61,262 bases of DNA from Terriglobales bacterium (GTDB taxonomy: Bacteria; Acidobacteriota; Terriglobia; Terriglobales; Acidobacteriaceae): assembly GCA_035624455.1 (NCBI GenBank), contig DASPRM010000043.1, positions 1-61,262 on the forward strand, read 5' to 3'. The notes beneath the pieces were generated by a model. The model saw nothing but the letters and a program-made list of their open reading frames with translations, was not told where the DNA came from and searched no databases. A program made the translations under genes and the position numbers. Shown here in pieces: positions 3,417 to 51,309 of the stretch (position 1 is the first letter of the stretch; each line of letters begins with the position of its first letter).

Positions 3417-3717
3417 CGCTTGACCGCCCCTAAGAAGGAGTTTCCTCTTTGGCGCGGATGGGTTGCCCCTTCGAATGAGACCTTTCGAAAAACGAGAGGA
3501 TGTCCGCGTTTCCAGAGGCTACCCCTTCATTGACGCAAAGAATAGTAGAGATTTCTGGACGAAATAGGAGTGTACTCTCTGGTGCAAGCCGTGCGACAGC
3601 GGCATAAACTGGCGCAATCCGGAACACTCGACCGTTTGTCCCGACGACGAACGTGAAAGTTCACCGACACCATCGGAGTCCATCGTACGTCTGCACAGCC
3701 GCTCCGTGTGGGCAGCT

Positions 3718-3924
3718 ATGAGTAAAGCCTTCCCTTCCAATTCCAGCGGGCCCGGCCAAGTCACCCACCTTAACCCCAAGATAGAGGGCCCTGTCTGGAT
3801 TCGTTGGGTTCCTGGATTGAATACGTTTGGTCGCTATGAGCGTTCGTGGTTGCGACACGACCTTGTGGCCGGGTTGGTCATGACCGCTATGCTGGTGCCG
3901 GTAGGCATCGCCTATGCTCGTTGA
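3718..3924 (+). pseudogene. SulP-family anion permease, N-terminal fragment
   Basis: The reading frame ends with the characteristic SulP start: RWVPGLNTFGRYERSWLRHDLVAGL, then AMLVPVGIAYA, the first transmembrane helix of sulfate-permease/SulP carriers. Instead of continuing with the second helix it hits a stop at 3922-3924. The frame overlapping at 3914 codes for an unrelated C-terminal stretch. Only about 10% of a normal SulP protein (around 550 residues) remains, so this is a truncated relic with a breakpoint at about 3912-3918. Confidence 0.68.
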
Positions 3925-4581: not shown

Positions 4582-5028
4582 ATGAATCTAAGCACGCAAT
4601 TCCGCGTGAACACTCCGAATGTCACCCATGAAACGATCGATGGCGAAACCGTCATCGTCAATTTGGTTAGCGGCAACTACTACAGCCTGCAAGGCACGGG
4701 AGTGCTGATTTGGCTGCTGGTGGAAAGAGGCTTTTCGGTTGAGGCAGTGATCGATTGGCTAAAACATCGGTATCCAAGCAAGGCGTCTGAAATCGAGCCA
4801 TGTGTCCTCAGCCTGCTGGGCCAGCTCAGTGAGGAGGATCTCATCGTCCCCGGTGCCGTGCCAAGCTCCACCCCGGAGGCGCCGTCGATGAATGAGAGCG
4901 TGGAAGGGCGGTTTGAACCGCAGGCACTGCAGAAGTTCACCGACATGCAGGAACTGTTGCTGCTCGATCCCATTCACGAGGTGGACAGCGCGGGTTGGCC
5001 CCACAAGAAATCGGATGTGACTGTCTGA
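4582..5028 (+). CDS. PqqD-like peptide-recognition protein with C-terminal tail
   Basis: A 148-residue protein. Residues about 10-92 form a PqqD-type winged-helix domain, the fold used as a RiPP recognition element: a beta pair TVIVNLVSGNYYSLQGTG (24-40), then a helix IWLLVERGFSVEAVIDWL and a C-terminal LLGQLSEEDLIV helix. Stand-alone PqqD is around 90 residues. Here a further 55 residues follow: a Pro/Ser linker (91-108), a helix FEPQALQKFTDMQEL and the distinctive LDPIHEVDSAGWP (128-140) near the C-terminus. It is the first gene of a seven-gene operon, 15 bases before the kinase-like gene. By family knowledge it should present a peptide to modifying enzymes; the tail could itself be the substrate (inference). 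Confidence 0.82.
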   Translation: MNLSTQFRVNTPNVTHETIDGETVIVNLVSGNYYSLQGTGVLIWLLVERGFSVEAVIDWLKHRYPSKASEIEPCVLSLLGQLSEEDLIVPGAVPSSTPEAPSMNESVEGRFEPQALQKFTDMQELLLLDPIHEVDSAGWPHKKSDVTV

Positions 5029-5043
5029 ACTAGCCTGCACCCC

Positions 5044-6150
5044 ATGTCCACGGCCCCAGCCAGCACGATTGAAGCCGCGCGAAGTGGCGACCACCTTCCG
5101 CGCTCGTTCTTCGAAGACTGTCAGCGGGCGTTTGAAGCGGCCGCCGAGCTGGTGGGCGAGTTCGACCAGTGCTTTCAATTAGGGGGATACGGCGTACGTC
5201 TCAGGTTCGCAGGAACTGCGCTGCTCGAAAATATGTCAAGAGCATTCGCCCCTGCGGCGTCTGCTTCCGCACACGTCCCCGACCTTACGATCTGCCTTTG
5301 GGACAGCGAATCGAGTGGTTGCCAGCCACCCCGGCCGCAATGGCGGGAACACAGATCGCTTCGAGGTGAAGTAGAAGGCTACAACACCACCCGCTTCTAC
5401 ACCGTCTATGAGCACGAATCTGGTGGCTTCACTCTGTTCGACAGGGAAAGGAATCTCGCCAATGTCTGGGTTCCCGCGGCAAATCGCGTCCCCTATTGGA
5501 TCAAAGGTTCACCCCTGCGAACGGTATTGTATTGGTGGATGGGACTTCACCAGCGGCAGCTGGTTCATGCAGCCGCTGTAGGCAATCGATCCGGTGGAGT
5601 CTTGATTGCTGGAAAAAGCGGTTCTGGCAAATCGACCACGGCGCTGGCCTGCTTGACGGCGGGAATGCAGTATGCGGGTGACGATTACGTGATCGTCGAT
5701 CAGGAACCCACGACATGCGTCTACAACTTGTACAACACCGCCAAGGTCTGCGCTAATCATCTGCATGCATTCCCCCAACTCCGGGATCTGATTGACAATC
5801 CTGGAAAGCTCGACACCGAAAAAGCCCTCATCTTTCTGAGCGACGGGGCATTTGCCAGCCGGATTGTCTCTGGTTTTCCTCTGCGATCGGTTCTGGTTCC
5901 GCGGGTAACTGGCTTGCGCGACACCCGCCTGAAGAAAGCTTCCCCGGCTCTGGCCCTCGCCGCTCTGGCGCCCACAACGATGTTTGCTCATCCTCGGGGA
6001 GGCGAACAGGACTTCAAGCGGGTAGGGGATCTGGTGCGCGCCATTCCTTGCTACCTGCTGGAATGCGGCACCGATCTGCAGCAGATTCCGCTCACCATAA
6101 CTGCTCTGCTGGAAAGCAGCTGTCGAGAGCCCTTGGAGGCGCAAGCGTGA
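5044..6150 (+). CDS. HPr kinase-related P-loop protein
   Basis: A 368-residue protein. The C-terminal half resembles the HPr serine kinase catalytic domain: HAAAV leading into a P-loop GKSGSGKST at residues 190-198, then AGDDYVIV about 20 residues on, as in HPr kinase. The N-terminal half (1-165) is family-specific and contains a WVPAANRVPYWIKGSPLRTVLYWW stretch. The HPr-binding region and PTS genes are absent, so the substrate is unlikely to be HPr. Relatives next to PqqD-like proteins phosphorylate the C-terminal end of lasso peptides (for example paeninodin). Here the PqqD gene is directly upstream and a GT2 start (GTG) overlaps the stop, so a peptide/protein kinase role is likely. Confidence 0.78.
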   Translation: MSTAPASTIEAARSGDHLPRSFFEDCQRAFEAAAELVGEFDQCFQLGGYGVRLRFAGTALLENMSRAFAPAASASAHVPDLTICLWDSESSGCQPPRPQWREHRSLRGEVEGYNTTRFYTVYEHESGGFTLFDRERNLANVWVPAANRVPYWIKGSPLRTVLYWWMGLHQRQLVHAAAVGNRSGGVLIAGKSGSGKSTTALACLTAGMQYAGDDYVIVDQEPTTCVYNLYNTAKVCANHLHAFPQLRDLIDNPGKLDTEKALIFLSDGAFASRIVSGFPLRSVLVPRVTGLRDTRLKKASPALALAALAPTTMFAHPRGGEQDFKRVGDLVRAIPCYLLECGTDLQQIPLTITALLESSCREPLEAQA

Positions 6151-6878
6151 CGGGTCAAACCTTGATCAGCGTCATCATTCCGGCGTACAACGCCGGAGCG
6201 TTTCTTGGCGACGCCATTGAATGTGTTCGGGAGCAGCACTATGAGCCGCTCGAAGTTATCGTTATCGACGACGGATCGACGGACAATACGTTCGAAGTAG
6301 CGGCATCGTTTGGCAATTGGGTGCATATCATCCGTCAGGAAAATCAAGGTCCGGCGGCCGCCCGCAACTCTGGTCTCCGCCTCGCGCAAGGCAACAGCAT
6401 TGCTTTCCTCGATGCCGACGATCTCTGGCCTGCAGGCACATTGAAGATGCTCGCTTCCCAATTGGCCGCTCGTCCAGAACTGGATGTCATTCTCGGCCGC
6501 GTTCAATACATGTGCCAGGTTGCAGCCCCAGGGGATACTCGCCGCTTTGAGCCATTCTCTGAGCCCTGCATCTCCATGAGTCTGGATGCCGGTCTTTTTC
6601 GTAGATCAGCATTCGACCGGGTGGGCTGCTTCAACGCCGCCATACGCTCCGGAGAAGACGTGGACTGGTTCATGCGCGCCCGCGAACAGCAAGTCGGCCT
6701 CAAAGTTCTGTCCGAGGTAACGTTGTTTTACCGCCGCCACGGCTGCAACATGACCCGTGCCCGGGAATCGATCCATGCTGATTTTGTTCGCGTCCTGAAA
6801 AGATCCATTGAACGGCGGAGGAACGCGAACACGCTGGAATCCCTGCCCCCAATGTCTGCGGATGCAGACAGCCGGTAA
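6147..6878 (+). CDS. GT2-family glycosyltransferase, copy 1
   Basis: A 243-residue family 2 glycosyltransferase: VIIPAYNAG at the N-terminus, VIDDGSTDNT nucleotide-binding segment, GPAAARNSG, then a DAD motif at residues 89-91 (FLDADDLW) for metal-sugar nucleotide binding, and GEDVDWF as the acceptor-side motif. The GTG at 6147 overlaps the kinase stop (GTGA) and is preceded by TGGAGG eight bases upstream. A longer frame upstream lies inside the kinase gene and is not used. There is no transmembrane helix, so it should be cytosolic. The end, LKRSIERRR, is shared with the two following paralogues. The sugar and acceptor are unknown. Confidence 0.88.
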   Translation: MTGQTLISVIIPAYNAGAFLGDAIECVREQHYEPLEVIVIDDGSTDNTFEVAASFGNWVHIIRQENQGPAAARNSGLRLAQGNSIAFLDADDLWPAGTLKMLASQLAARPELDVILGRVQYMCQVAAPGDTRRFEPFSEPCISMSLDAGLFRRSAFDRVGCFNAAIRSGEDVDWFMRAREQQVGLKVLSEVTLFYRRHGCNMTRARESIHADFVRVLKRSIERRRNANTLESLPPMSADADSR

Positions 6879-6912
6879 CCTGGCGCAAGGCTATGAGGAA
6901 GGTATCGAAAAT

Positions 6913-7650
6913 ATGAAACCACTGGTAAGCGTCATTATTGCGGTACGAAACGGAGAGCGCTACTTGCCGGCGGCGATCGAAAGTGTGCGCCAGCAGGACT
7001 ATCGGCCCCTGGAACTCATCGTCGTTGACGGCCATTCCAGCGACAACACCGCGGCGATTGCGCGCTCCTATCGCGATTTGCGCTACGTTCCGCAAGTCAA
7101 TCGTGGCGTCGCCGACGCTTGGAACCAGGGAATTGCGGCAGCCAAGGCGGACCTTCTTGCCTTTTTCTCGCATGACGATCTTTGGCTCCCGCACAAACTG
7201 GGCCGTCACATGGACCTTATGTTGAGCCGTCCAGAACTGCAATACACGGTATCGCGGGTAAAGTTTTTCCTGGAACCGGGACACTCCATCCCTTCCGGCT
7301 TTCGCGAAGAACTGCTGGTGGGCGATCGTGTCGCCTATATCCCGGAAACGCTGGTGGCGCGCAAGGCCCTGTTCGCCAGAATCGGAGGCTTCGATCCCCA
7401 GTTGAGCACCGCGGAGGATGTCGACTGGTTTGCCCGGGCAAAGGACCATCACGTGACACATGAGGTCATTCCCGAAGTGCTGGTCCACAAGCGAGTGCAC
7501 GACAGCAATATTTCACTGAACAGCATGACCAATGATCAGATGTTGCTTACAACCTTGCGGCAATCGATCCATCGCAAGCGGACTTTCGATTCAAAGACCA
7601 TGGTTCCAGGGTCTGCGGAAAACGGAAACACAAGGCTGAACCAGAAATGA
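6913..7650 (+). CDS. GT2-family glycosyltransferase, copy 2
   Basis: A 245-residue GT2 enzyme: VSVIIAVRNGERYL, VVDGHSSDNT, NQGIAAAK, then HDD (87-89, in SHDDLW) in place of the DXD of its neighbours, followed by AEDVDWFARAKDH and VHKRVHDSNIS. The ATG at 6913 has GAGGAAGG about ten bases upstream. Extending the frame to 6808 would overlap copy 1, so the shorter start is preferred. The stop overlaps the start of copy 3 (ATGA). The H-D-D variant is common in GT2 but suggests its donor specificity differs from copies 1 and 3. It keeps the basic C-terminal LRQSIHRKR segment. Confidence 0.88.
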   Translation: MKPLVSVIIAVRNGERYLPAAIESVRQQDYRPLELIVVDGHSSDNTAAIARSYRDLRYVPQVNRGVADAWNQGIAAAKADLLAFFSHDDLWLPHKLGRHMDLMLSRPELQYTVSRVKFFLEPGHSIPSGFREELLVGDRVAYIPETLVARKALFARIGGFDPQLSTAEDVDWFARAKDHHVTHEVIPEVLVHKRVHDSNISLNSMTNDQMLLTTLRQSIHRKRTFDSKTMVPGSAENGNTRLNQK

Positions 7651-8351
7651 ACAACACCTCTAACCCGCTCATCAGCGTCATCATTCCGGTCTATAACGCC
7701 GAGCGTTACATCGAGGAAGCGATCTGCAGCGTCCTGGAGCAGGACTTTCGTCCGATTGAGATTGTCTGCATCGCTGACGGCCCCAGCGACCGCAGCCTGG
7801 AGATCGCACAGAAGTATGCTCCGACCGTGCGCACTTACACACAAGCCAATCAAGGCGCCGCTGCGGCTCGCAATCGCGGCGTCGAGATGTCCACCGGAAG
7901 TGTGCTGGCGTTTCTCGATGCCGACGATCGCTGGACGCCGTACAAGTTGCGACTGCAGGCCGATGCCTTGGCTGTCGATCCGGGGCTCGACATGGTCTTC
8001 GGACAGGCCCGTCAACTTCATGACGGAGAGGAATGGAACCTCGGAGTCAGTCAACTCACCTGTGCGCCCGGTGAATTGATGGCGGGCATGATTCCCGGCA
8101 CGTGGATGGTCAGGCGAGACTGCTTCTCCCGGGTCGGACCTCTAAGGACTGATTACCGCATTGGAGAGTTCATAGAGTGGTATGCCCGCGCTATCGACAT
8201 GGGCTGCCGGGCAACCGTTCTGCCCGACCTGTTGCTGTGGCGGCGCATTCACGACTCCAATCTGGGAGTTCGCGAGCGTAAATCAGCTCCGGATTATGCC
8301 CGCGTGTTGAAGTCCGCCCTCGACCGCAGGCGGGCGGCGCAATTGAAATGA
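7647..8351 (+). CDS. GT2-family glycosyltransferase, copy 3
   Basis: A 234-residue GT2 enzyme: SVIIPVYNAERYI, a nucleotide-binding IADGPSDRS where the usual D-D-G-S is altered to A-D-G-P, GAAAARNRG, and DAD at residues 91-93 (FLDADDRW). GEFIEWYARA replaces the EDVDWF motif of its paralogues. It ends with VLKSALDRRR. Its ATG overlaps the previous stop, so translation is coupled. The altered motifs indicate divergence after duplication rather than redundancy. The acceptor is unknown; operon context suggests a peptide or protein modified by the upstream kinase. Confidence 0.87.
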   Translation: MNNTSNPLISVIIPVYNAERYIEEAICSVLEQDFRPIEIVCIADGPSDRSLEIAQKYAPTVRTYTQANQGAAAARNRGVEMSTGSVLAFLDADDRWTPYKLRLQADALAVDPGLDMVFGQARQLHDGEEWNLGVSQLTCAPGELMAGMIPGTWMVRRDCFSRVGPLRTDYRIGEFIEWYARAIDMGCRATVLPDLLLWRRIHDSNLGVRERKSAPDYARVLKSALDRRRAAQLK

Positions 8352-8358
8352 GGAATCA

Positions 8359-9582
8359 GTGCTGACTGCCGAAATGACCGAACCGCGCCTGGGAATCACC
8401 AACGAATCAGGCTGCTGGCCAACCGCTGTGCAGGAATTGGCCCTGCAGGCCGCACTTCTGGAGGGATACGGCGCGCGCAATGCCTGGGCTGCCTGGAAAG
8501 CGGTTGCGGATCTCGATGCCCTCGACTTCGGCATCCATCGCTTACTGCCCCTGATCTACCACAATCTGCGGGCGCAAGGTCTCAGCGATCCTGTCCTGGA
8601 TAAATTCAAGAGTGTTTACCGCTATTATCTTTACAACAACGAAATCATTCTTCATCGAGCCGCCGCGATTCTCAAGGCCCTGCGCGACGCCGGAATTCAG
8701 ACCATGGTGTTGAAAGGTGCGGCCCTCATCCCGCTTTATTATCAGAAGCGGGGGCTGCGCCCCATACAGGACTGCGACATCGCAGTACCTCAATCTCACG
8801 TGTTCGCCGCTATGGCCACTCTCCGGGGCCTCGGTTGGACCTCCACTTGGGAACTTGCGCCAGAACAGTTTGTAACGATTCGCCACTCCGCCCCGTTCGT
8901 TAACCCCGAAGGACACACGTTGGATCTCCACTGGGGAATCCTCTACGAATGTTGGAATCGCAATCAGGATGCCGCGTTCTGGAAGAGATCAATTCCGGTC
9001 ACCATCTGCGATCAACCCACCTGGGCCCTGGAGCCGACCGATCAGTTGTTGCACATCATCTGCCATGGCGCCCGCTGGAACGAGGTGCCGCCTATCCGTT
9101 GGATTGCCGACGCTATGATGGTTTTGCGTGGCCCCGCAGAGATTGATTGGCAACGATTTCTGCGGCTTTGCGAGTTTCACCACCTGAATCTGTTTGTTCA
9201 CCACAGCCTGGAGTGGTTGCGCACGAGACTCGACGCACCTATACCGCAGTTTGTGCTGAACCAGCTACAGTCGTTGCCTGTGCCCCCCATCGAGCAATTT
9301 GGGTACAACTTGATGACTCAGCCGCCGTTGGAAGGGCCGACCAACAAAGAAATCTTCCGAACCCTGCGCTACGAATATCTATGGCTGACCAGCGATGTCC
9401 CCATCTTTCGCAAGCCTTTCATTTTTCTGCACTGGCTCCAGTACAGGTGGAAAATAGGCCAGCTTTGGCAGACCCCCTTAGTTTTGCTGAGCAGCGCAGT
9501 GGCGCGAATTGCGAAGCAGCTAAGAACGCGGCTCGCCAGGGCAAGCTGCTTGAAAATCACCACTCACCCAGCGAACAGGTAG
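8359..9582 (+). CDS. Nucleotidyltransferase-like protein (NTP_transf_5 type)
   Basis: A 407-residue protein with the core of the uncharacterised NTP_transf_5 family: VLKGAALIPLYY (Lys at about 119), then RPIQDCDIAVP with Asp138 and Asp140 forming the DxD metal site, and later LDLHWGI and QLLHIICHGARW. Proteins of this type occur in lasso-peptide and other RiPP-like clusters next to HPr-kinase-like enzymes, and one has been linked to extra modification of a phosphorylated peptide. The GTG start at 8359 has GAGG about six bases upstream and lies seven bases after copy 3. A basic C-terminal helix (residues about 370-400) may contact membrane or nucleic acid. Confidence 0.8.
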   Translation: MLTAEMTEPRLGITNESGCWPTAVQELALQAALLEGYGARNAWAAWKAVADLDALDFGIHRLLPLIYHNLRAQGLSDPVLDKFKSVYRYYLYNNEIILHRAAAILKALRDAGIQTMVLKGAALIPLYYQKRGLRPIQDCDIAVPQSHVFAAMATLRGLGWTSTWELAPEQFVTIRHSAPFVNPEGHTLDLHWGILYECWNRNQDAAFWKRSIPVTICDQPTWALEPTDQLLHIICHGARWNEVPPIRWIADAMMVLRGPAEIDWQRFLRLCEFHHLNLFVHHSLEWLRTRLDAPIPQFVLNQLQSLPVPPIEQFGYNLMTQPPLEGPTNKEIFRTLRYEYLWLTSDVPIFRKPFIFLHWLQYRWKIGQLWQTPLVLLSSAVARIAKQLRTRLARASCLKITTHPANR

Positions 9583-9591
9583 CAGCAGGCG

Positions 9592-10914
9592 ATGACGGCT
9601 CATATCCAATCGAGATGGGAACGTCACTCGCAACAAAGCCTGGATTGGCAGTCAGGATCTAATTTCCGTGGCTGGGCGGATTCCAAAATCGAGGAACTGG
9701 AGCACGTCCTCAAAGAGAACATACTCGGATTCTGGCTGCCGCGCTGTTTGGATTTCGAGCACGGTGGTTACGCCATCAATTTTGACCGTTATGGGCATCC
9801 CAATGGGCGCAGGTCGAAGGGAATCGTCACCCAGGCGCGAATGCTGTGGCTGTTCTCCGCTTCGTTCGTTAACCAGCACGGTGGACCTGAGCTCTTGCAT
9901 GCTGCGGACTCCGGCTACCAGTTCCTGCGTGAACATATGTGGGATCGCGAGCATGGCGGATTTTTCTGGGAAGTGGGCGCCTCCGGAAATTCTGTGCTGG
10001 GCGATGGCAAACACCTGTATGGCCAAGCGTTTGGCTTGTTTGCACTGTCAGCCTATGGATTAGCGACCCGCAACACCGATGCGCTGGCTTTCGCCTGCGA
10101 TTTGTTCGACTTGTTAGAACGGCGCGCGCACGACAGCCGGTATGGGGGATATCGCGAGTTTTTTCGTCGAGATTGGGGTGCCGCCCCAGCGACTGAAATC
10201 GGTTATCTCGGCATGCCTGCCGGTCTCAAGCTGATGAACACCCATCTTCATCTGCTTGAGGCTTATACCCTCTTTTTTCTGGCGACTGCAGTGCCCATGG
10301 CCCGCCAACGAATCCTGGAGCTAATCTCTATACTGAGCCAATCGGTGGTCCGCGAAGAAATCGGGACCTGTACAGATGTCCACCTCTCCGACTGGCAGCC
10401 TCTGCTCACAGGAGACTCTGCCCGGACATCTTACGGGCATGTGCTGGAAAACATCTCGCTGCTGATCAACTCCTCGGAGGCAATAGAAGCATCGACCAGC
10501 CGCATCCTTCCGCTCTGCAACACCCTATTCAATTATTGCTTGAAATATGGATATGACAAACGCAATGGGGGATTCTACGAAAGCGGACCTCTGGGACGGC
10601 CTGCCGACAACCGCAGGAAAACCTGGTGGGTGCAGGCGGAAGCACTTTGGAGCACTTTGCAGATGCACCACCTAACGTGGGATCCGACCTATCTCGAAAT
10701 CTTTAATCACAATTGGGAATTTGTGAAGCGCCATCAGATCGATTGGACTTACGGTGAATGGTATGAGCAAGTCAATCGCTGGCGAGTGGTTAAGAGCGAT
10801 AAGGGTCACATCTGGAAAGCGGGCTACCACCAGGGAAGAGCCATGATCGAATGCATAAGGTTACTGAGGGAGTGTGCCGCGGGTTCCAACCTGGAAACCA
10901 GGCTAAGCGTTTGA
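9592..10914 (+). CDS. N-acylglucosamine 2-epimerase family protein
   Basis: A 440-residue (alpha/alpha)6-barrel protein of the AGE/cellobiose 2-epimerase superfamily. Visible landmarks are HGGYAINFD near the N-terminus, KGIVTQARMLWLF, DREHGGFFWEV, NTHLHLLEAYT, GHVLENISLL, KTWWVQAEALW and the closing GHIWKAGYHQGRAMIE. The three His regions (THLH, GHVLE, GYHQGR) match the catalytic/general-base histidines of the family. Expected activity is C2 epimerisation or ketose-aldose isomerisation of a sugar. It starts nine bases after the nucleotidyltransferase and ends the operon, where it could provide or trim the sugar transferred by the GT2 enzymes. Next-strand genes converge four bases downstream. 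Confidence 0.85.
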   Translation: MTAHIQSRWERHSQQSLDWQSGSNFRGWADSKIEELEHVLKENILGFWLPRCLDFEHGGYAINFDRYGHPNGRRSKGIVTQARMLWLFSASFVNQHGGPELLHAADSGYQFLREHMWDREHGGFFWEVGASGNSVLGDGKHLYGQAFGLFALSAYGLATRNTDALAFACDLFDLLERRAHDSRYGGYREFFRRDWGAAPATEIGYLGMPAGLKLMNTHLHLLEAYTLFFLATAVPMARQRILELISILSQSVVREEIGTCTDVHLSDWQPLLTGDSARTSYGHVLENISLLINSSEAIEASTSRILPLCNTLFNYCLKYGYDKRNGGFYESGPLGRPADNRRKTWWVQAEALWSTLQMHHLTWDPTYLEIFNHNWEFVKRHQIDWTYGEWYEQVNRWRVVKSDKGHIWKAGYHQGRAMIECIRLLRECAAGSNLETRLSV

Positions 10915-12658: not shown

Positions 12659-14563
12659 CTAGGTTCCGGTTCCGCGAATGATGTTGATGGGATTCACGCC
12701 AGCCTCGCGTCCATTCGTGTCGGAGCGCTTTTCCTCCTGCTCTATCTTGTCGCCCTCGCCTGGCGCCAGAAAAAGGTTGGCTTCCAAGCCATGTTGCCGG
12801 TTGTAAAGATCGAAATACCGGCCACCCAGGGCATAGAGTGAGGCATGAGTTCCGCGTTCGACAATCTGACCGGACTCGACAACAAGAATTTGATGGGCTC
12901 GCCGAATGGTGGAGAGCCGATGAGCGATCACGAAAGTGGTGCGGCCCTGCATGAGGTACGAGAGGCCTTCCTGAATGAGTTGTTCGGATTCGGAATCGAG
13001 GCTGGAAGTCGCTTCGTCCAAAATCAGGATGCGTGGTTCGGCCAGAATGGCGCGAGCAATCGAGACACGCTGGCGCTGCCCCCCGGATAGCTTCACACCA
13101 CGCTCGCCGATGATGGTGTCATATCCGTCTTGGAAGCGTTCAGCGAATTCGTCGACGCGGGCGATGCGAGCGGCGCGCAGAATCTCCTGTTCACTTGCGC
13201 GCGGGCGAGAAAAAGCGATGTTCTCGCGAATGGTACCGTCGAAGAGGAAGGAATCCTGCAGGACGGTACCGAGATGCGTACGATAAGAATCCAGTCTGAC
13301 GGTGGAAAGGTCGACTCCATCGATCAGCACCTGGCCGGCCTTCGGGGTATGAAAAGCCGCTACCAGACCGATGATTGTCGATTTGCCGGATCCCGAAGAT
13401 CCCACAAGTGCGGTCACTGTGCCCGGCCGGGAGTCAAAGGAGATGTCCTGCAGGACGGGCTTACCGGGCTCGTATTCAAAATAGACATTGCGGAACTCGA
13501 TGTGTCCGGATACTCCGGGCAGAGCGACGACGCGACGAGGGTCCTCATCTTCCGGATGCTCGGTCAGCACTTCGCGAGTGCGCTCCAGGCCGGCGATAGC
13601 TTCGGTGAGTTGGGTCCCGATCTGAACGACACCAAATAGCGGCGCGGCCATGAAGCCCAGGAACATTGTGTAGGTGAAAAACCCGCCCAGGGTGAGCGTG
13701 CCCGCCAGGATCTGATGTACGCCTGCGAACATGACGCAGGCGCCGACCAGTCCTAAGAGCACGCTGGAGGAGAGGCTCATGACGGAAGTGGCGGTCAGGG
13801 TCTTGAGAACGTTCGCCAGCAAGCGCTGGACGCCGGTCTCAAAAACGGCGTGCTCGCGGGCTTCAGCGTGATATCCCTTGACCACGCGGACACCGCCCAG
13901 CGACTCGGCGAGTCTTCCGGTCACCTCGGCATTGATCTTGGAACGCTCGCGAAAGATGGGGCGCATGGTTTTAAAGCCCTTTCGCAAAGCCAGCGCGAAG
14001 ACGCTCAGAAAGCCAATGGCCATCAGGGTCATGCCGGCGCTGATGCGGAACAGAACTACCAGGGCAATAAGCGCTGTCAGCAATCCACCCAGGAAGTCGA
14101 CCAGGCCGGTGCCGAGAAGGTTGCGAACGCCTTCGACGTCGGACATGATGCGGGAGATGAGAACGCCGGTCTTGTTGGAATCGTAGTACGCAAGCGGCAG
14201 CCGTCCAACATGTTCCTGCACCCTCAGGCGCAGTTCGGCAATCAGCCTCTGCGCAGCCTTGGAGAGGAGTTGAGTAAGCGCAAAGGACGTGCTCCCCTGG
14301 ATCAGAGTGGCCAACAGCACGGCTCCGACAATCGGCGTCAGCAGCTTCAACTGGTGCTTGATTACGACGTTGTCGATCAGATAACGGGTCGAGTAGGGAA
14401 GTACCAGTCCTGAGACGCGATTGACGGCCATAAGAAGCAGGCCGAGCGCGAGGAGCCACCTGCGGGGGCGCACCAGCGCCCAGATCTCCGGCATCGCCGC
14501 ACGGAGGTCGGGCTTACGCTTTTCTTGTTGGTTTCCCGATTTTCGGGAAGATAAGTCGCTCAC
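12659..14563 (-). CDS. ABC exporter, fused membrane and ATPase domains
   Basis: A 634-residue half-transporter. Residues about 30-330 are the six-helix ABC exporter membrane domain; the ATPase follows with GSSGSGKST (Walker A), LSGGQRQRVSIARAIL (signature), ILILDEATSSLDSES (Walker B) and VIAHRLSTIRRA (H-loop). All catalytic motifs are intact, so it should act as a homodimer or with a related subunit. A 40-residue charged tail follows the ATPase, which is longer than usual. It belongs to the lipid/peptide/multidrug exporter group; substrate is not predictable. It lies 29 bases upstream of the VOC-SpoIIE gene on the same strand. Confidence 0.92.
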   Translation of the reverse strand: MSDLSSRKSGNQQEKRKPDLRAAMPEIWALVRPRRWLLALGLLLMAVNRVSGLVLPYSTRYLIDNVVIKHQLKLLTPIVGAVLLATLIQGSTSFALTQLLSKAAQRLIAELRLRVQEHVGRLPLAYYDSNKTGVLISRIMSDVEGVRNLLGTGLVDFLGGLLTALIALVVLFRISAGMTLMAIGFLSVFALALRKGFKTMRPIFRERSKINAEVTGRLAESLGGVRVVKGYHAEAREHAVFETGVQRLLANVLKTLTATSVMSLSSSVLLGLVGACVMFAGVHQILAGTLTLGGFFTYTMFLGFMAAPLFGVVQIGTQLTEAIAGLERTREVLTEHPEDEDPRRVVALPGVSGHIEFRNVYFEYEPGKPVLQDISFDSRPGTVTALVGSSGSGKSTIIGLVAAFHTPKAGQVLIDGVDLSTVRLDSYRTHLGTVLQDSFLFDGTIRENIAFSRPRASEQEILRAARIARVDEFAERFQDGYDTIIGERGVKLSGGQRQRVSIARAILAEPRILILDEATSSLDSESEQLIQEGLSYLMQGRTTFVIAHRLSTIRRAHQILVVESGQIVERGTHASLYALGGRYFDLYNRQHGLEANLFLAPGEGDKIEQEEKRSDTNGREAGVNPINIIRGTGT

Positions 14564-17404: not shown

Positions 17405-19222
17405 CTAGCGGGGCTCCAGGCTCTCGTCTCCCACGAATTGCAAGTGATAGAGCTCGGCGTACAGGCCGCCGCGGTGCAGCAGCTCGTCGTGCTTGCCCCG
17501 TTCGACGATTTCACCGTCCTGGATGACAAAGATGACATCAGCCTTGCGGATGGTGGAGAGACGATGCGCAATGACAATCGCGGTTTTACCCTGGATGAGG
17601 CGATCAAGCGCCTCGAACACGAGTCGTTCAGAAGCTGAATCGAGGCCGGTGGTGGGTTCGTCGAGAATGAGGATGGAATTTTTTCGCAGGATGGCGCGGG
17701 CGATGGCGACGCTCTGGCGCTGGCCGCCAGAGAGCGTCATGCCGCGTTCGCCGATGATGGTGTCGTACCCTTCAGGCAATTTTTCGATGAAGTCGCTGGC
17801 ATTGGCGAGTTCTGCGGCTCGAATAATCTCGGAACGGGTCGCTTCCGGTCTGCCATAAGCAACGTTCTGCCAAACCGGGGCATGAAAGAGCATGGTCTCC
17901 TGCAGCACAAAGCTGATCTGCTGACGCAGGGATCGCTGGCGGTAGCGGCGGATGTCCATGCCATCAATCTTGACGGCTCCGGCGGTTGGTTCATAGAAGC
18001 GCGGAATCAGGCTAATGATGCTGGTTTTGCCGGCGCCAGTGGGCCCTACCAGGGCCGCGAGTTCTCCTGCCTTGATAGTGAAGCTTACGTCCTTAAGAAC
18101 GGGAGTGTCCGGCGTGTAAGAGAACGAGACGTTATCGAATTCGATATCCCCGCGAAAGCGCGGCGCCGCGATGGCGCGAAGAGAATCTTTGATCTCCTTA
18201 TCGTTAGCCAGAATTTCCTGGATGCGCTCGTAACCCACAGCCGCCTTGGAGTAACTGTCGGTCATCTTGGAGAGTTCCTGCATCGGCTTGTACATCTTCT
18301 TCAAGTAAAGGATGAAGACCACGAGGGAGCCGGCGGAGAGGCTGCCACTTAATATCAGTCGCGCGCCAAACCAGAGAACCAGTCCGGTGCCCACTGCAAC
18401 AATTAGATCGACTATAGGGGTGAGTTTGGCTTTGAGACCGCGCGCCCGGAGGGCAATCTCGATTCCTTCCAGGCTTTCTTGCTCCAGGCGGCGTACTTCG
18501 TAGTCTTCGCGGGCGAACGCCTTCACTACTCGGATCGACGAGAGCACTTCTTCCACAACCGAAGTAATCTCTCCTTCTTTCTTGCGAACAGCGCGCGCGG
18601 CCTTCTTGATCCGCCGGGTATAGGAATAGACGACGATGAACAGTGGCGGTGCGATGGAAAGGGCGATCAGAGTGAAGCGCCAGTTCAAATAGAACATCAC
18701 ACCGATCATGCCGAAGAGCGTGATGATGTTGATCAACGAACTGAGCAGCCCGGAAGTGATGAAGCTTTGAATGGAGTCGATATCGTTCGTGACCCGGCTG
18801 ATGAGATCGCCAGTCTGCTTCTGGTCATGGAAGGCGAGTGACAGCCGCTGGATATGGGCGTAGATGGTTCGCCGCAACTCGTAGGCGATCCACTGGCCAA
18901 CATTTGTGGTGATGTATTTCTCGGAGTAAGTGCATACTGCATCGAGAGCAGCGATTGCCAAAACCGCCAGGCAAGCGAACTTGAGCATGCCGATCTGGTC
19001 AGAGCCGGTGATGGGCTGCAGCCAGCGAAGCATGGAGGCGTGGGTGTCACGTCCGCGCAGGACGTTATCCAGGACGATTTTCAGAGGCCAGGGATCGAGA
19101 AGATTGGCGGCGCCCTCGCCGGTTACAGCCAGGAGGCCGAGAAGCAATGAAGTCCGATGTGGGGCAAGAAGCTGGGCGATGGTGAGCTTTTTGCGTTTCT
19201 GAGTGACAATCGCATCCTGCAC
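17405..19222 (-). CDS. ABC exporter, fused membrane and ATPase domains
   Basis: A 605-residue half-transporter from the GTG at 19222 (GGAG eight bases upstream); an alternative start at 19321 would add 33 residues that look non-coding. The membrane domain (about 20-310) contains WIAYELRRTIYAHIQRLSLAFHDQKQTGDLISRVTNDID-type intracellular loops. The ATPase has GPTGAGKTS, LSGGQRQSVAIARAIL, ILILDEPTTGLDSAS and VIAHRLSTIRKA. It is closest to MsbA/multidrug-type exporters. It ends 15 bases from the stop of the kinase-like gene on the other strand, and with the exporter at 12.7-14.6 kb it brackets three exported-protein genes. Confidence 0.92.
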   Translation of the reverse strand: MQDAIVTQKRKKLTIAQLLAPHRTSLLLGLLAVTGEGAANLLDPWPLKIVLDNVLRGRDTHASMLRWLQPITGSDQIGMLKFACLAVLAIAALDAVCTYSEKYITTNVGQWIAYELRRTIYAHIQRLSLAFHDQKQTGDLISRVTNDIDSIQSFITSGLLSSLINIITLFGMIGVMFYLNWRFTLIALSIAPPLFIVVYSYTRRIKKAARAVRKKEGEITSVVEEVLSSIRVVKAFAREDYEVRRLEQESLEGIEIALRARGLKAKLTPIVDLIVAVGTGLVLWFGARLILSGSLSAGSLVVFILYLKKMYKPMQELSKMTDSYSKAAVGYERIQEILANDKEIKDSLRAIAAPRFRGDIEFDNVSFSYTPDTPVLKDVSFTIKAGELAALVGPTGAGKTSIISLIPRFYEPTAGAVKIDGMDIRRYRQRSLRQQISFVLQETMLFHAPVWQNVAYGRPEATRSEIIRAAELANASDFIEKLPEGYDTIIGERGMTLSGGQRQSVAIARAILRKNSILILDEPTTGLDSASERLVFEALDRLIQGKTAIVIAHRLSTIRKADVIFVIQDGEIVERGKHDELLHRGGLYAELYHLQFVGDESLEPR

Positions 19223-19528
19223 AGGATTCGCTCCGCGCCGACTCCGTCCCGGCCATGCGTCCGCCACGGGGCAGCGGAGACGTAGCAATCGCATGGGATG
19301 GATGTCGATGCCAGCCGTCAAGTTGCTTGGCGCACCGGCTACGCCGTATCCCAGGGCCTAATGCTCTAAGTTCAGTCTGGTGGCTGGATTCGGGGCGTAG
19401 GGGCGGAGGGGGAATACCACCGGGAAGGTCAAGTCAGTCTTCCCTTGTAAGTAAAGTTCTGCTTTAGCTCTGGGCCTGAGCCGTTACAATGTTCGGCAAC
19501 TTAATCGCATTGAAAGATAGGAAGGCTC

Positions 19529-50706: not shown

Positions 50707-51309
50707 GTGGAGTTAAGCGTCAAACGATTTGAATTTCGTATTAGAATTGCTGCCGTGGGAGATGCGGGCACATCAGAAGCGACACCTCCGCAGCGGCGTA
50801 AGCCACTCCTGGAGATGTGGGTGCGCGACGTTCTCATTTCGCTTCTCATCTCCACCTTCATCATCGTGTTTCTTTACCAACCGGTGAAGGTTGAGGGCAC
50901 CAGCATGATGCCCGGCCTCGATGACCAGGAACGCATCTTCATAAACAAATTTGTTTACCGCTTTGGCTCGATCGAACGCGGAGACATCGTGGTTTTCCAA
51001 TATCCGCGGGATCTCTCGAAGCGCTATATCAAGCGCGTAATCGGCCTGGCGGGGGACCGGGTGAGGATTGATGACGGCAAGGTATACGTGAACGGCCAGT
51101 CACTGGACGAGCCTTACGTTCCCGCCGAATATGCCGATCTCCGTTCCATGCCGGAGATCACCGTTCCCGCCAATTCCTATTTCCTGCTGGGTGATCATCG
51201 CACCAGTTCGAACGACAGCCGCGATTTCGGTCCGGTTCCCGGACAATTCATCTATGGCAAGGCGGTGTTCGTATACTGGCCGATGGACAAGCTGGGCATA
51301 CTTCGTTAG
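50707..51309 (+). CDS. lepB: Signal peptidase I
   Basis: A 200-residue leader peptidase from a GTG at 50707. One membrane helix (DVLISLLISTFIIVFLYQP) is followed by catalytic Ser66 in EGTSMMPGL and Lys109 in YIKRVIGLAGD; GDHRTSSNDSRDFG matches the box E region. It cleaves signal peptides at the outer face of the inner membrane. Shorter than the E. coli enzyme and with a single helix, as in many non-proteobacteria. The N-terminal 40 residues before the helix are variable, so the start is uncertain. Confidence 0.92.
   Translation: MELSVKRFEFRIRIAAVGDAGTSEATPPQRRKPLLEMWVRDVLISLLISTFIIVFLYQPVKVEGTSMMPGLDDQERIFINKFVYRFGSIERGDIVVFQYPRDLSKRYIKRVIGLAGDRVRIDDGKVYVNGQSLDEPYVPAEYADLRSMPEITVPANSYFLLGDHRTSSNDSRDFGPVPGQFIYGKAVFVYWPMDKLGILR

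Follow-up and report, generated by a model that had tools for sequence, protein, structure and literature searches.

A conserved leader-like tail fused to a PqqD-type recognition protein in a cyclase-free kinase, nucleotidyltransferase and glycosyltransferase operon

What do a PqqD-type recognition protein, a kinase and a nucleotidyltransferase act on in an operon that holds neither a lasso cyclase nor a separate precursor gene? We addressed this question for the genes at positions 4582-10914 of a 61-kb window (the whole stretch of DNA that was analysed, which is contig C43 of its source genome). The answer that we favor, and that we judge reasonably likely, is that this operon encodes a lasso-derived pathway of the kind that makes ribosomally synthesized and post-translationally modified peptides (RiPPs), in which the precursor, leader and core together, is fused in cis to its own RiPP recognition element (RRE) and is modified on this tail. 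By computation we observed the fusion, the conservation of the tail and its co-occurrence with the kinase, its leader-like motif and predicted docking, and the absence of the cyclase and of the B2 leader peptidase.

The first gene of the operon, gene A, encodes a PqqD domain that runs to approximately residue 89, followed by a 60-residue extension whose end reads FEPQALQKFTDMQELLLLDPIHEVDSAGWPHKK. The tail was found by comparison with one distant relative (L019), in which a variable linker precedes a conserved end, F..M..L..LDPIHEVD..GWP. The protein divides as follows (pLDDT, predicted local distance difference test):

4594..4848, plus strand: RRE domain, approximately residues 5-89; pLDDT 92-98 per block of ten, with model residues 5-93 aligned to 5v1v
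4849..4911, plus strand: variable linker, residues 90-110; mean conservation 0.81 bits
4912..4971, plus strand: lasso-type leader motif, residues 111-130, consensus FxxPxLxKYTDMQDLLLLDP; strongly conserved, with a score matrix that ranks lasso leaders near the top
4972..5025, plus strand: putative core, residues 131-148, consensus IHxVDExGWPxxK, assigned by conservation

The boundary between leader and core is uncertain (127-131). The initial annotation had reported that no separate precursor was present, and none was found as far as we looked, but it had overlooked the fused one at residues 111-148 of gene A.

We collected relatives by searching 396 Acidobacteriota genomes with the 32-residue tail as the query and by scanning named-species genomes with an alignment of 11 tails, which gave 243 pattern matches, 226 of them confirmed, from which the best 80 were kept; an earlier protein-based scan of genome contigs had produced no match, whereas the tail alignment did. 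Over 88 sequences, residues 111-140 carried a mean of 3.40 bits of information, compared with 2.07 for the RRE and 0.81 for the linker, and when the nine columns of the scan pattern were left out the tail still averaged 3.06 bits, more than the RRE. Within the core, V134, G138, W139 and P140 were each retained in 87 of the 88 sequences; I131 and H132 were retained in all 88, but both lie inside the scan pattern. In L093, L112, L116 and L117 the end of the tail occurs twice, the extra unit being GWP, DWP or AWP, as though the core were repeatable.

The tailed RRE proved to be widespread. The tail alone matched 17 of the 396 Acidobacteriota genomes at E≤0.1 and 12 at E≤1e-4. It followed an RRE in the same frame in 79 of the 80 kept loci, as judged both by an RRE-only profile and by the RRE of the window alone (the exception being L091). 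The 75 of these 80 loci with placeable titles fell into at least 16 NCBI phyla, most of the records behind these counts being metagenome-assembled: Chloroflexota (21), Bacteroidota (10), Acidobacteriota (7), Cyanobacteriota, Thermodesulfobacteriota and Nitrospirota (6 each), Myxococcota, Planctomycetota and Pseudomonadota (3 each), Ignavibacteriota, Bacillota and Gemmatimonadota (2 each), and Lentisphaerota, Bipolaricaulota, Verrucomicrobiota and Balneolota (1 each). A cyanobacterial plasmid, from Crinalium epipsammum (NC_019735), also carries the tailed gene, where its annotation is simply 'PqqD family protein'. When a tree was built from the recognition domain and the tail was left out, the tailed proteins clustered (3 changes, compared with a shuffled mean of 9.7), with most branches poorly resolved. 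Spread by viruses was considered and set aside, with two weak matches in viral contigs. One of the 12 Acidobacteriota genomes (G330, L056:8432-9529) holds only remnants, consisting of a tail fragment with a stop and a piece resembling NTP_transf_5, which suggests decay in that one relative. Genomes of 1.6-2.1 Mb from Cyanobacteriota samples (L180-L191, L205, L206) carry a version with a kinase of ~500 residues and a tail that extends past ...EETGWTPEKDSIGYTKEET; the two that were checked (L180 and L181) have a second PqqD-like domain after the kinase.

The conserved part of the tail that precedes the core resembles a lasso leader, and the same genome supplies one for comparison. Its contig C141 (L020:6330-12693) carries a separate lasso-type cluster of PqqD, B2, NTP_transf_5, HprK-like kinase and cyclase genes, with a small precursor open reading frame (ORF) between the kinase and the cyclase, the leader of which is YCKPELVRYGDVAELT; the cluster adjoins ORFs that read like exopolysaccharide genes. 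This leader aligns without gaps to the gene A tail FEPQALQKFTDMQELL (L063: FTAPVLQKYTDMQDLL). The threonine that lasso leaders have two residues before the cleavage site, which the C141 precursor keeps, aligns with Leu126 of gene A, a position inside the scan pattern that is leucine in 87 of the 88 sequences. When nine control loci with an untailed PqqD were scored with a matrix made from the 88 tails, the C141 leader came first of 192,554 windows and a candidate leader in L026 came third; for a version of the matrix without two pattern-influenced columns, column shuffles attained the scores of these two leaders 0 times and once in 20,000, respectively.

In the AlphaFold2 model of gene A (79 sequences), the pLDDT was 91 for residues 111-120, of which 117-119 formed a strand, and fell to 64 for residues 121-130 and to 56-58 beyond them. 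The solved folds closest to the model were the lasso B1-leader complexes 5v1v, 5v1u and 6jx3 (TbiB1, TfuB1), with Z scores of 12.7, 12.6 and 11.4, and a profile of the tail itself matched none of the sequences of solved structures at E≤10. According to the accessible text of one report, the cleft of the PbaB1-PbaA crystal complex is filled by W-15, P-12 and L-10 of PbaA, with residues -9 to -7 as a strand (PMC13381572); the same spacing recurs in gene A at residues 111, 114 and 116 and at the strand 117-119. From secondary structure and spacing, we infer that the leader-like tail is likely to dock as a β strand at the site where crystallised leaders bind.

The initial annotation had also noted that the lasso cyclase and the leader peptidase were missing, and profile searches, including ones with dedicated profiles, bore this out, finding neither a cyclase nor a B2 peptidase on the 61-kb contig. 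Elsewhere in the genome, PF00733 matched on contigs C141, C92 and C95, and PF13471 on C141 only. Among the relatives, we found a cyclase in 0 of 88 loci and B2 in 0 of 88, and likewise neither in the 54 named-genome loci in which 7 kb or more of sequence follows the tail. Both profiles, for each of which a single sequence had served as the seed, worked on the controls, where they recovered the cyclase in L020 and L025 and B2 in L020, L023, L026 and L027; a weak match to the B2 profile (E≤1e-4) appeared in one short variant-core locus, L158. Nor did any peptidase family recur in two or more of the neighbor ORFs of relatives that were scanned at E≤1e-5, which comprised 63 of the 79 unlabelled operon ORFs and 94 of the 250 nearby ORFs, short or very long ones having been left out. 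The model for SpI-like signal peptidases, TIGR02228, matched the genome only on contig C36, with no match at the operon. Two further observations concern signal peptidases in this genome. A type I signal peptidase (PF10502) is encoded at window positions 50707-51309, on the same contig and 40 kb from the operon. On contig C36 (L218:8423-11182), archaeal-type signal-peptidase-like, PEPCK/HprK-like, PqqD and radical-SAM-like proteins are encoded in a row, and a divergent small ORF (KPYHKPEFRFERVFETTALACGK) resembles the precursor motif of linear polyphosphorylated peptides (LPP); judging from these reading frames, the locus is possibly an LPP-like cluster outside the Bacillota.

The operon places gene A at the head of a set of candidate modifying enzymes, with gene starts refined from the reading frames:

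4582..5028, plus strand: gene A, PqqD-type RRE with C-terminal fused leader and core, 148 amino acids (PF05402, 3e-12)
5044..6150, plus strand: gene B, HprK-like kinase with PEPCK/HprK fold
6147..6878, plus strand: gene C, GT2 glycosyltransferase with GTG start (PF00535, 1e-32)
6913..7650, plus strand: gene D, GT2 glycosyltransferase (PF00535, 3e-26)
7647..8351, plus strand: gene E, GT2 glycosyltransferase (PF00535, 5e-30)
8359..9582, plus strand: gene F, NTP_transf_5 nucleotidyltransferase-like protein with GTG start (PF14907, 1e-41) and conserved K119, D138 and D140
9592..10914, plus strand: gene G, AGE-family epimerase, an occasional accessory (PF07221, 4e-43)

All seven co-directional, partly overlapping genes of the initial annotation were present, with 4-nt overlaps at genes B/C and D/E, and its PqqD, GT2, NTP_transf_5 and AGE identities were borne out by Pfam matches (gene A, 47.1 bits for PF05402 with a cut-off of 23.4; genes C, D and E, 93-113 bits for PF00535; gene F, 143 bits for PF14907 with a cut-off of 31.2; gene G, 149 bits for PF07221). 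In gene B, which it described as an HPr-kinase-like ATPase, the P-loop is present at residues 190-198 and the motifs are intact, but the match to PF07475 (28.0 bits) fell below the cut-off of 33.3, and the model of the whole chain was nearest to the phosphoenolpyruvate carboxykinases (PEPCKs; 1j3b, Z 17.8, root-mean-square deviation 5.2 over 306 aligned residues), with the catalytic domain on its own matching HPr kinases (1ko7, Z 14.6, deviation 3.5 over 141 residues). The catalytic residues of the kinase are conserved in relatives (H175, G190 and G193 in 75 of 75; K196 and S197 in 74 of 74; D213 and D214 each in 72 of 75), as are those of the nucleotidyltransferase (K119 in 62 of 68; D138 and D140 each in 65 of 68). 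Membership in the HPr-rel-A system, with which the operon has an HprK-related kinase in common, was rejected on a score of 38.1 bits, far below the cut-off of 200 for TIGR04352, the NCBIfam model for that system. Membership in a defence system was also dropped, since the sole PADLOC match was a weak one, to the P-loop of the kinase. A short ORF at window positions 3706-3924, upstream of the operon, reads like the cut-off N terminus of a SulP-type transporter and might reflect gene decay there.

The same partners accompany the tail elsewhere. Among the 54 loci with enough downstream sequence, a kinase was present in 49, NTP_transf_5 in 46 and GT2 in 49, in support of the initial annotation, and all three were present together in 44. 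In the nine control loci, the corresponding counts were 3 for the kinase, 3 for NTP_transf_5 and 1 for GT2, with a cyclase in 2, B2 in 4 and an ABC match in 3. The AGE epimerase, which had been counted as a core part of the operon, cannot be retained as such: it occurred in only 3 of the 88 loci, plus L207. ABC matches were found in 31 of the 54 loci and in 46 of the 88 relatives, full-length and beside cassette genes in 36 loci. The two ABC genes of the window (12659-14563 and 17405-19321) were considered as the operon's exporter and rejected, their best identities to cassette ABCs being 34% and 33% and their median scores 174 and 184 bits, compared with 378 inside the cassette set. Among the 63 scanned operon ORFs, the variable neighbors included 11 group-1 glycosyltransferases and 10 sulfotransferases, as well as epimerases.

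Across the 396 Acidobacteriota genomes, the kinase profile had matches in 14 and the tail in 12; both genes occurred in 11, the kinase only in 3 and the tailed PqqD only in 1 (Fisher p = 5e-18, the G330 remnant having been scored as a tail and the five weak tail matches at E 0.01-0.1 as none). Two of the kinase-only genomes have tails of a different type: G343 encodes a PqqD protein with the same leader part and a different core (YDPPKLTAYHDMADLLALDPPIPGLMPDAW), a core type also found in L199 (from a Chloroflexota sample), and in G400 an unrelated end comes after WDAPTV. The third, G438, has no PqqD on the stretch read. Kinase-first searches, which are less biased than the pattern scan and in which we counted a tailed RRE with canonical or variant core within the stretch read, found one with 13 of 14 Acidobacteriota kinases at E≤1e-20 (11 canonical, and G343 and G400 variant), 19 of 23 from Cyanobacteriota and 4 of 11 from Chloroflexota; at E≤1e-60, the counts were 12 of 13, 7 of 9 and 4 of 6. 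The five weaker Chloroflexota kinases were tail-less, two of them adjoining untailed PqqD proteins. The kinase was fused to a GT2 domain in 15 loci, and in L179/L207, from a Cyanobacteriota sample, RRE, tail, partial second RRE and kinase form one natural chain of 649 residues (L207:7171-9120), which puts kinase and tail in the same molecule; its neighbors in L207 are a GT2 gene, two NTP_transf_5 matches and an AGE gene.

How might such a system operate? In its known relatives, as far as the accessible texts describe them, the kinase phosphorylates a serine of the precursor, and the pseudomycoidin nucleotidyltransferase puts one or two hexoses on the phosphate (PMC8498205; PMC13381572). In our reading, a flexible linker would join the RRE of gene A to a lasso-type leader, which folds back and docks in the RRE cleft with a short conserved core kept next to it. 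A phosphate would be put on the presented tail by the HprK-like kinase, the NTP_transf_5 protein would then add a sugar or a nucleotide to the phosphate, and the GT2 enzymes would lengthen the glycan, which probably varies between genomes while the anchor is conserved. The product is probably linear and still attached to the RRE protein, because B2 and the macrolactam synthetase are missing and the pre-cleavage threonine is replaced by leucine. The parsimonious reading is that a precursor was captured by its own recognition domain and is modified, neither cleaved nor cyclised, with the tail probably phosphorylated and glycosylated. It is more tentatively that we extend this to a general role, in which the RRE protein could be a cis-presented carrier whose invariant tail anchors a species-variable, phosphate-linked glycan, uncleaved, in at least 16 phyla including the small-genome cyanobacteria. 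The initial annotation's phosphorylation and glycosylation of a peptide without cyclisation is supported in part, by the cyclase-free, lasso-related gene set and the intact kinase motifs; the modification site and the peptide as substrate are what we infer, with no invariant serine or threonine to mark them.

Several results weigh against a tail that is modified as a fused precursor. None of its serines or threonines is invariant: position 120 is serine or threonine in 78 of 87 relatives, and kinases are intact in loci with E, D, G, V or N there. T120 as the sole kinase acceptor was therefore rejected, the kinase being intact in those exceptions that have one. LppK, the LPP kinase, took serine and not threonine or tyrosine, according to the accessible text (PMC13381572). 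The kinase model is overall nearer to PEPCK than to HPr kinase, so the predicted fold makes a non-protein substrate possible. The conserved core may serve for docking and not as a substrate, and residues 121-148 have low confidence in the AlphaFold2 model (block means 64, 56 and 58). The conservation of the tail was partly selected by the scan pattern, so that the scan itself accounts for part of the invariance of [DE]LLL[LA]DPIH seen in the 80 genome-contig loci. The window itself has Gln114 at the motif proline, which is proline in 85 of the 88 sequences. In a 13-column matrix without two pattern-influenced columns, the two leaders ranked second and third of 198,894 and an unrelated window outranked both, and an 18-column leader hidden Markov model found no significant lasso precursor in the control loci. 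A tailed RRE was not seen, on the stretch read, near the strong kinases G438, L177, L178, L195 and L197. At E≤1e-60 there were five misses, and three of them (G438, L195 and L197) sit no more than 1.6 kb from the beginning of a contig. Finally, neither ABC gene within the window's first 20 kb is of the cassette type.

The lack of an invariant serine or threonine and the PEPCK-like fold make a scaffold the main rival explanation, one that we consider unlikely. Here the tail would be a docking element that fills the RRE cleft and recruits the kinase, the nucleotidyltransferase and the GT2 enzymes, and the substrate would be a glycan or lipid-linked sugar of a surface polysaccharide. The non-nucleophilic character of the conserved residues (D129, P130, W139) is as expected for such a scaffold, the kinase-GT2 fusions and the predicted fold would also suit a sugar-acting kinase, the glycosyltransferase, epimerase and sulfotransferase neighbors vary, and the lasso-type cluster of the same genome lies beside glycan-like ORFs. 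Yet the segment predicted to dock looks like a substrate-delivering leader, kinases and nucleotidyltransferases related to these act on RiPP precursors or lasso peptides, and the core-swapped L162 and L199 keep the leader and carry another core. A second rival, which we think quite improbable, is a normal RiPP precursor that happens to be fused and is cleaved by an unlinked protease to yield a short linear phosphoglycopeptide, as in LPP. The LPP leader peptidase is itself signal-peptidase-like, the type I enzyme of the window and the archaeal-type one on C36 are at hand, and the ABC matches in 31 of the loci with enough sequence could fit a released peptide; against it stand the scanned neighbor ORFs, which share no recurring peptidase family, and the leucine in place of the pre-cleavage threonine. 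That the operon is a decayed, functionless lasso peptide cluster, as the lack of a cyclase and B2 and the remnants in L056 might suggest, is contradicted by the same architecture and conserved active sites across 16 phyla and can be considered most improbable.

Returning to the fused, modified precursor, its closest known system is LPP, a cyclase-free RiPP class with kinase, NTP transferase and RRE (Nat Commun 2026; PMC13381572), the publication of which means that the general cyclase-free idea is no longer new. As described in the accessible text, LPP clusters resemble the operon family in having an RRE, an HprK-like kinase with intact catalytic residues, an NTP transferase and, for many members, a putative ABC exporter, together with a [YW]xxPx[LV]-type leader and no cyclase, and they are described there as confined to Bacillota, with a discrete RRE, a separate precursor with a variable core, a SpI-like leader peptidase and Ser3 of the core as acceptor. 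In contrast, the operon family has its precursor fused to the RRE, a conserved core, GT2 enzymes in the cassette, no conserved tail serine and a range of 16 phyla. The MsbA-like exporter of LPP may find its counterpart in the ABC matches of relatives, but the two ABC genes of the window are of another type. For LppN, the LPP NTP transferase, the same text reports no visible effect in that system (PMC13381572). Lasso peptides of the paeninodin/pseudomycoidin type share an HprK-like kinase and a nucleotidyltransferase as putative tailoring enzymes, a PqqD-type B1 and a YxxP/WxxP leader, whereas the operon is without their macrolactam synthetase, B2 peptidase, separate precursor and conserved C-terminal serine. 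In the RRE-glycosyltransferase fusion clusters described in the accessible parts of two studies (RRE-Finder, PMC7470986; PMC12710340), the RRE is fused to an enzyme, whereas in the operon it is fused to a peptide. What is unusual about this lasso- and LPP-like system is that precursor and recognition domain are fused in cis. We found no description of an RRE fused to a precursor in such a cassette in the accessible text of the open-access literature, a scope outside which most subscription papers fall, and the strings LLLLDPIH and DPIHEVD occur in no paper of the open-access literature searched. According to the accessible part of a 2025 survey, 21% of PF05402 proteins are longer than the discrete size and carry no further annotation (PMC12710340), which fits with the tailed family having been overlooked.

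If our reading is correct, an unnoticed C-terminal extension of a 'PqqD family protein' would be the substrate of a widespread modification pathway, and a RiPP precursor would be able to fuse to its recognition domain while losing both cleavage and cyclisation. Gene A with the kinase, the nucleotidyltransferase and one GT2 would make a minimal system for asking what HprK-like and NTP_transf_5 proteins do, and the natural RRE-tail-kinase chain of L207 would be a ready-made single-protein assay. The recurrence of the tailed RRE and its partners in at least 16 phyla suggests that a small protein is decorated in a manner not described before.

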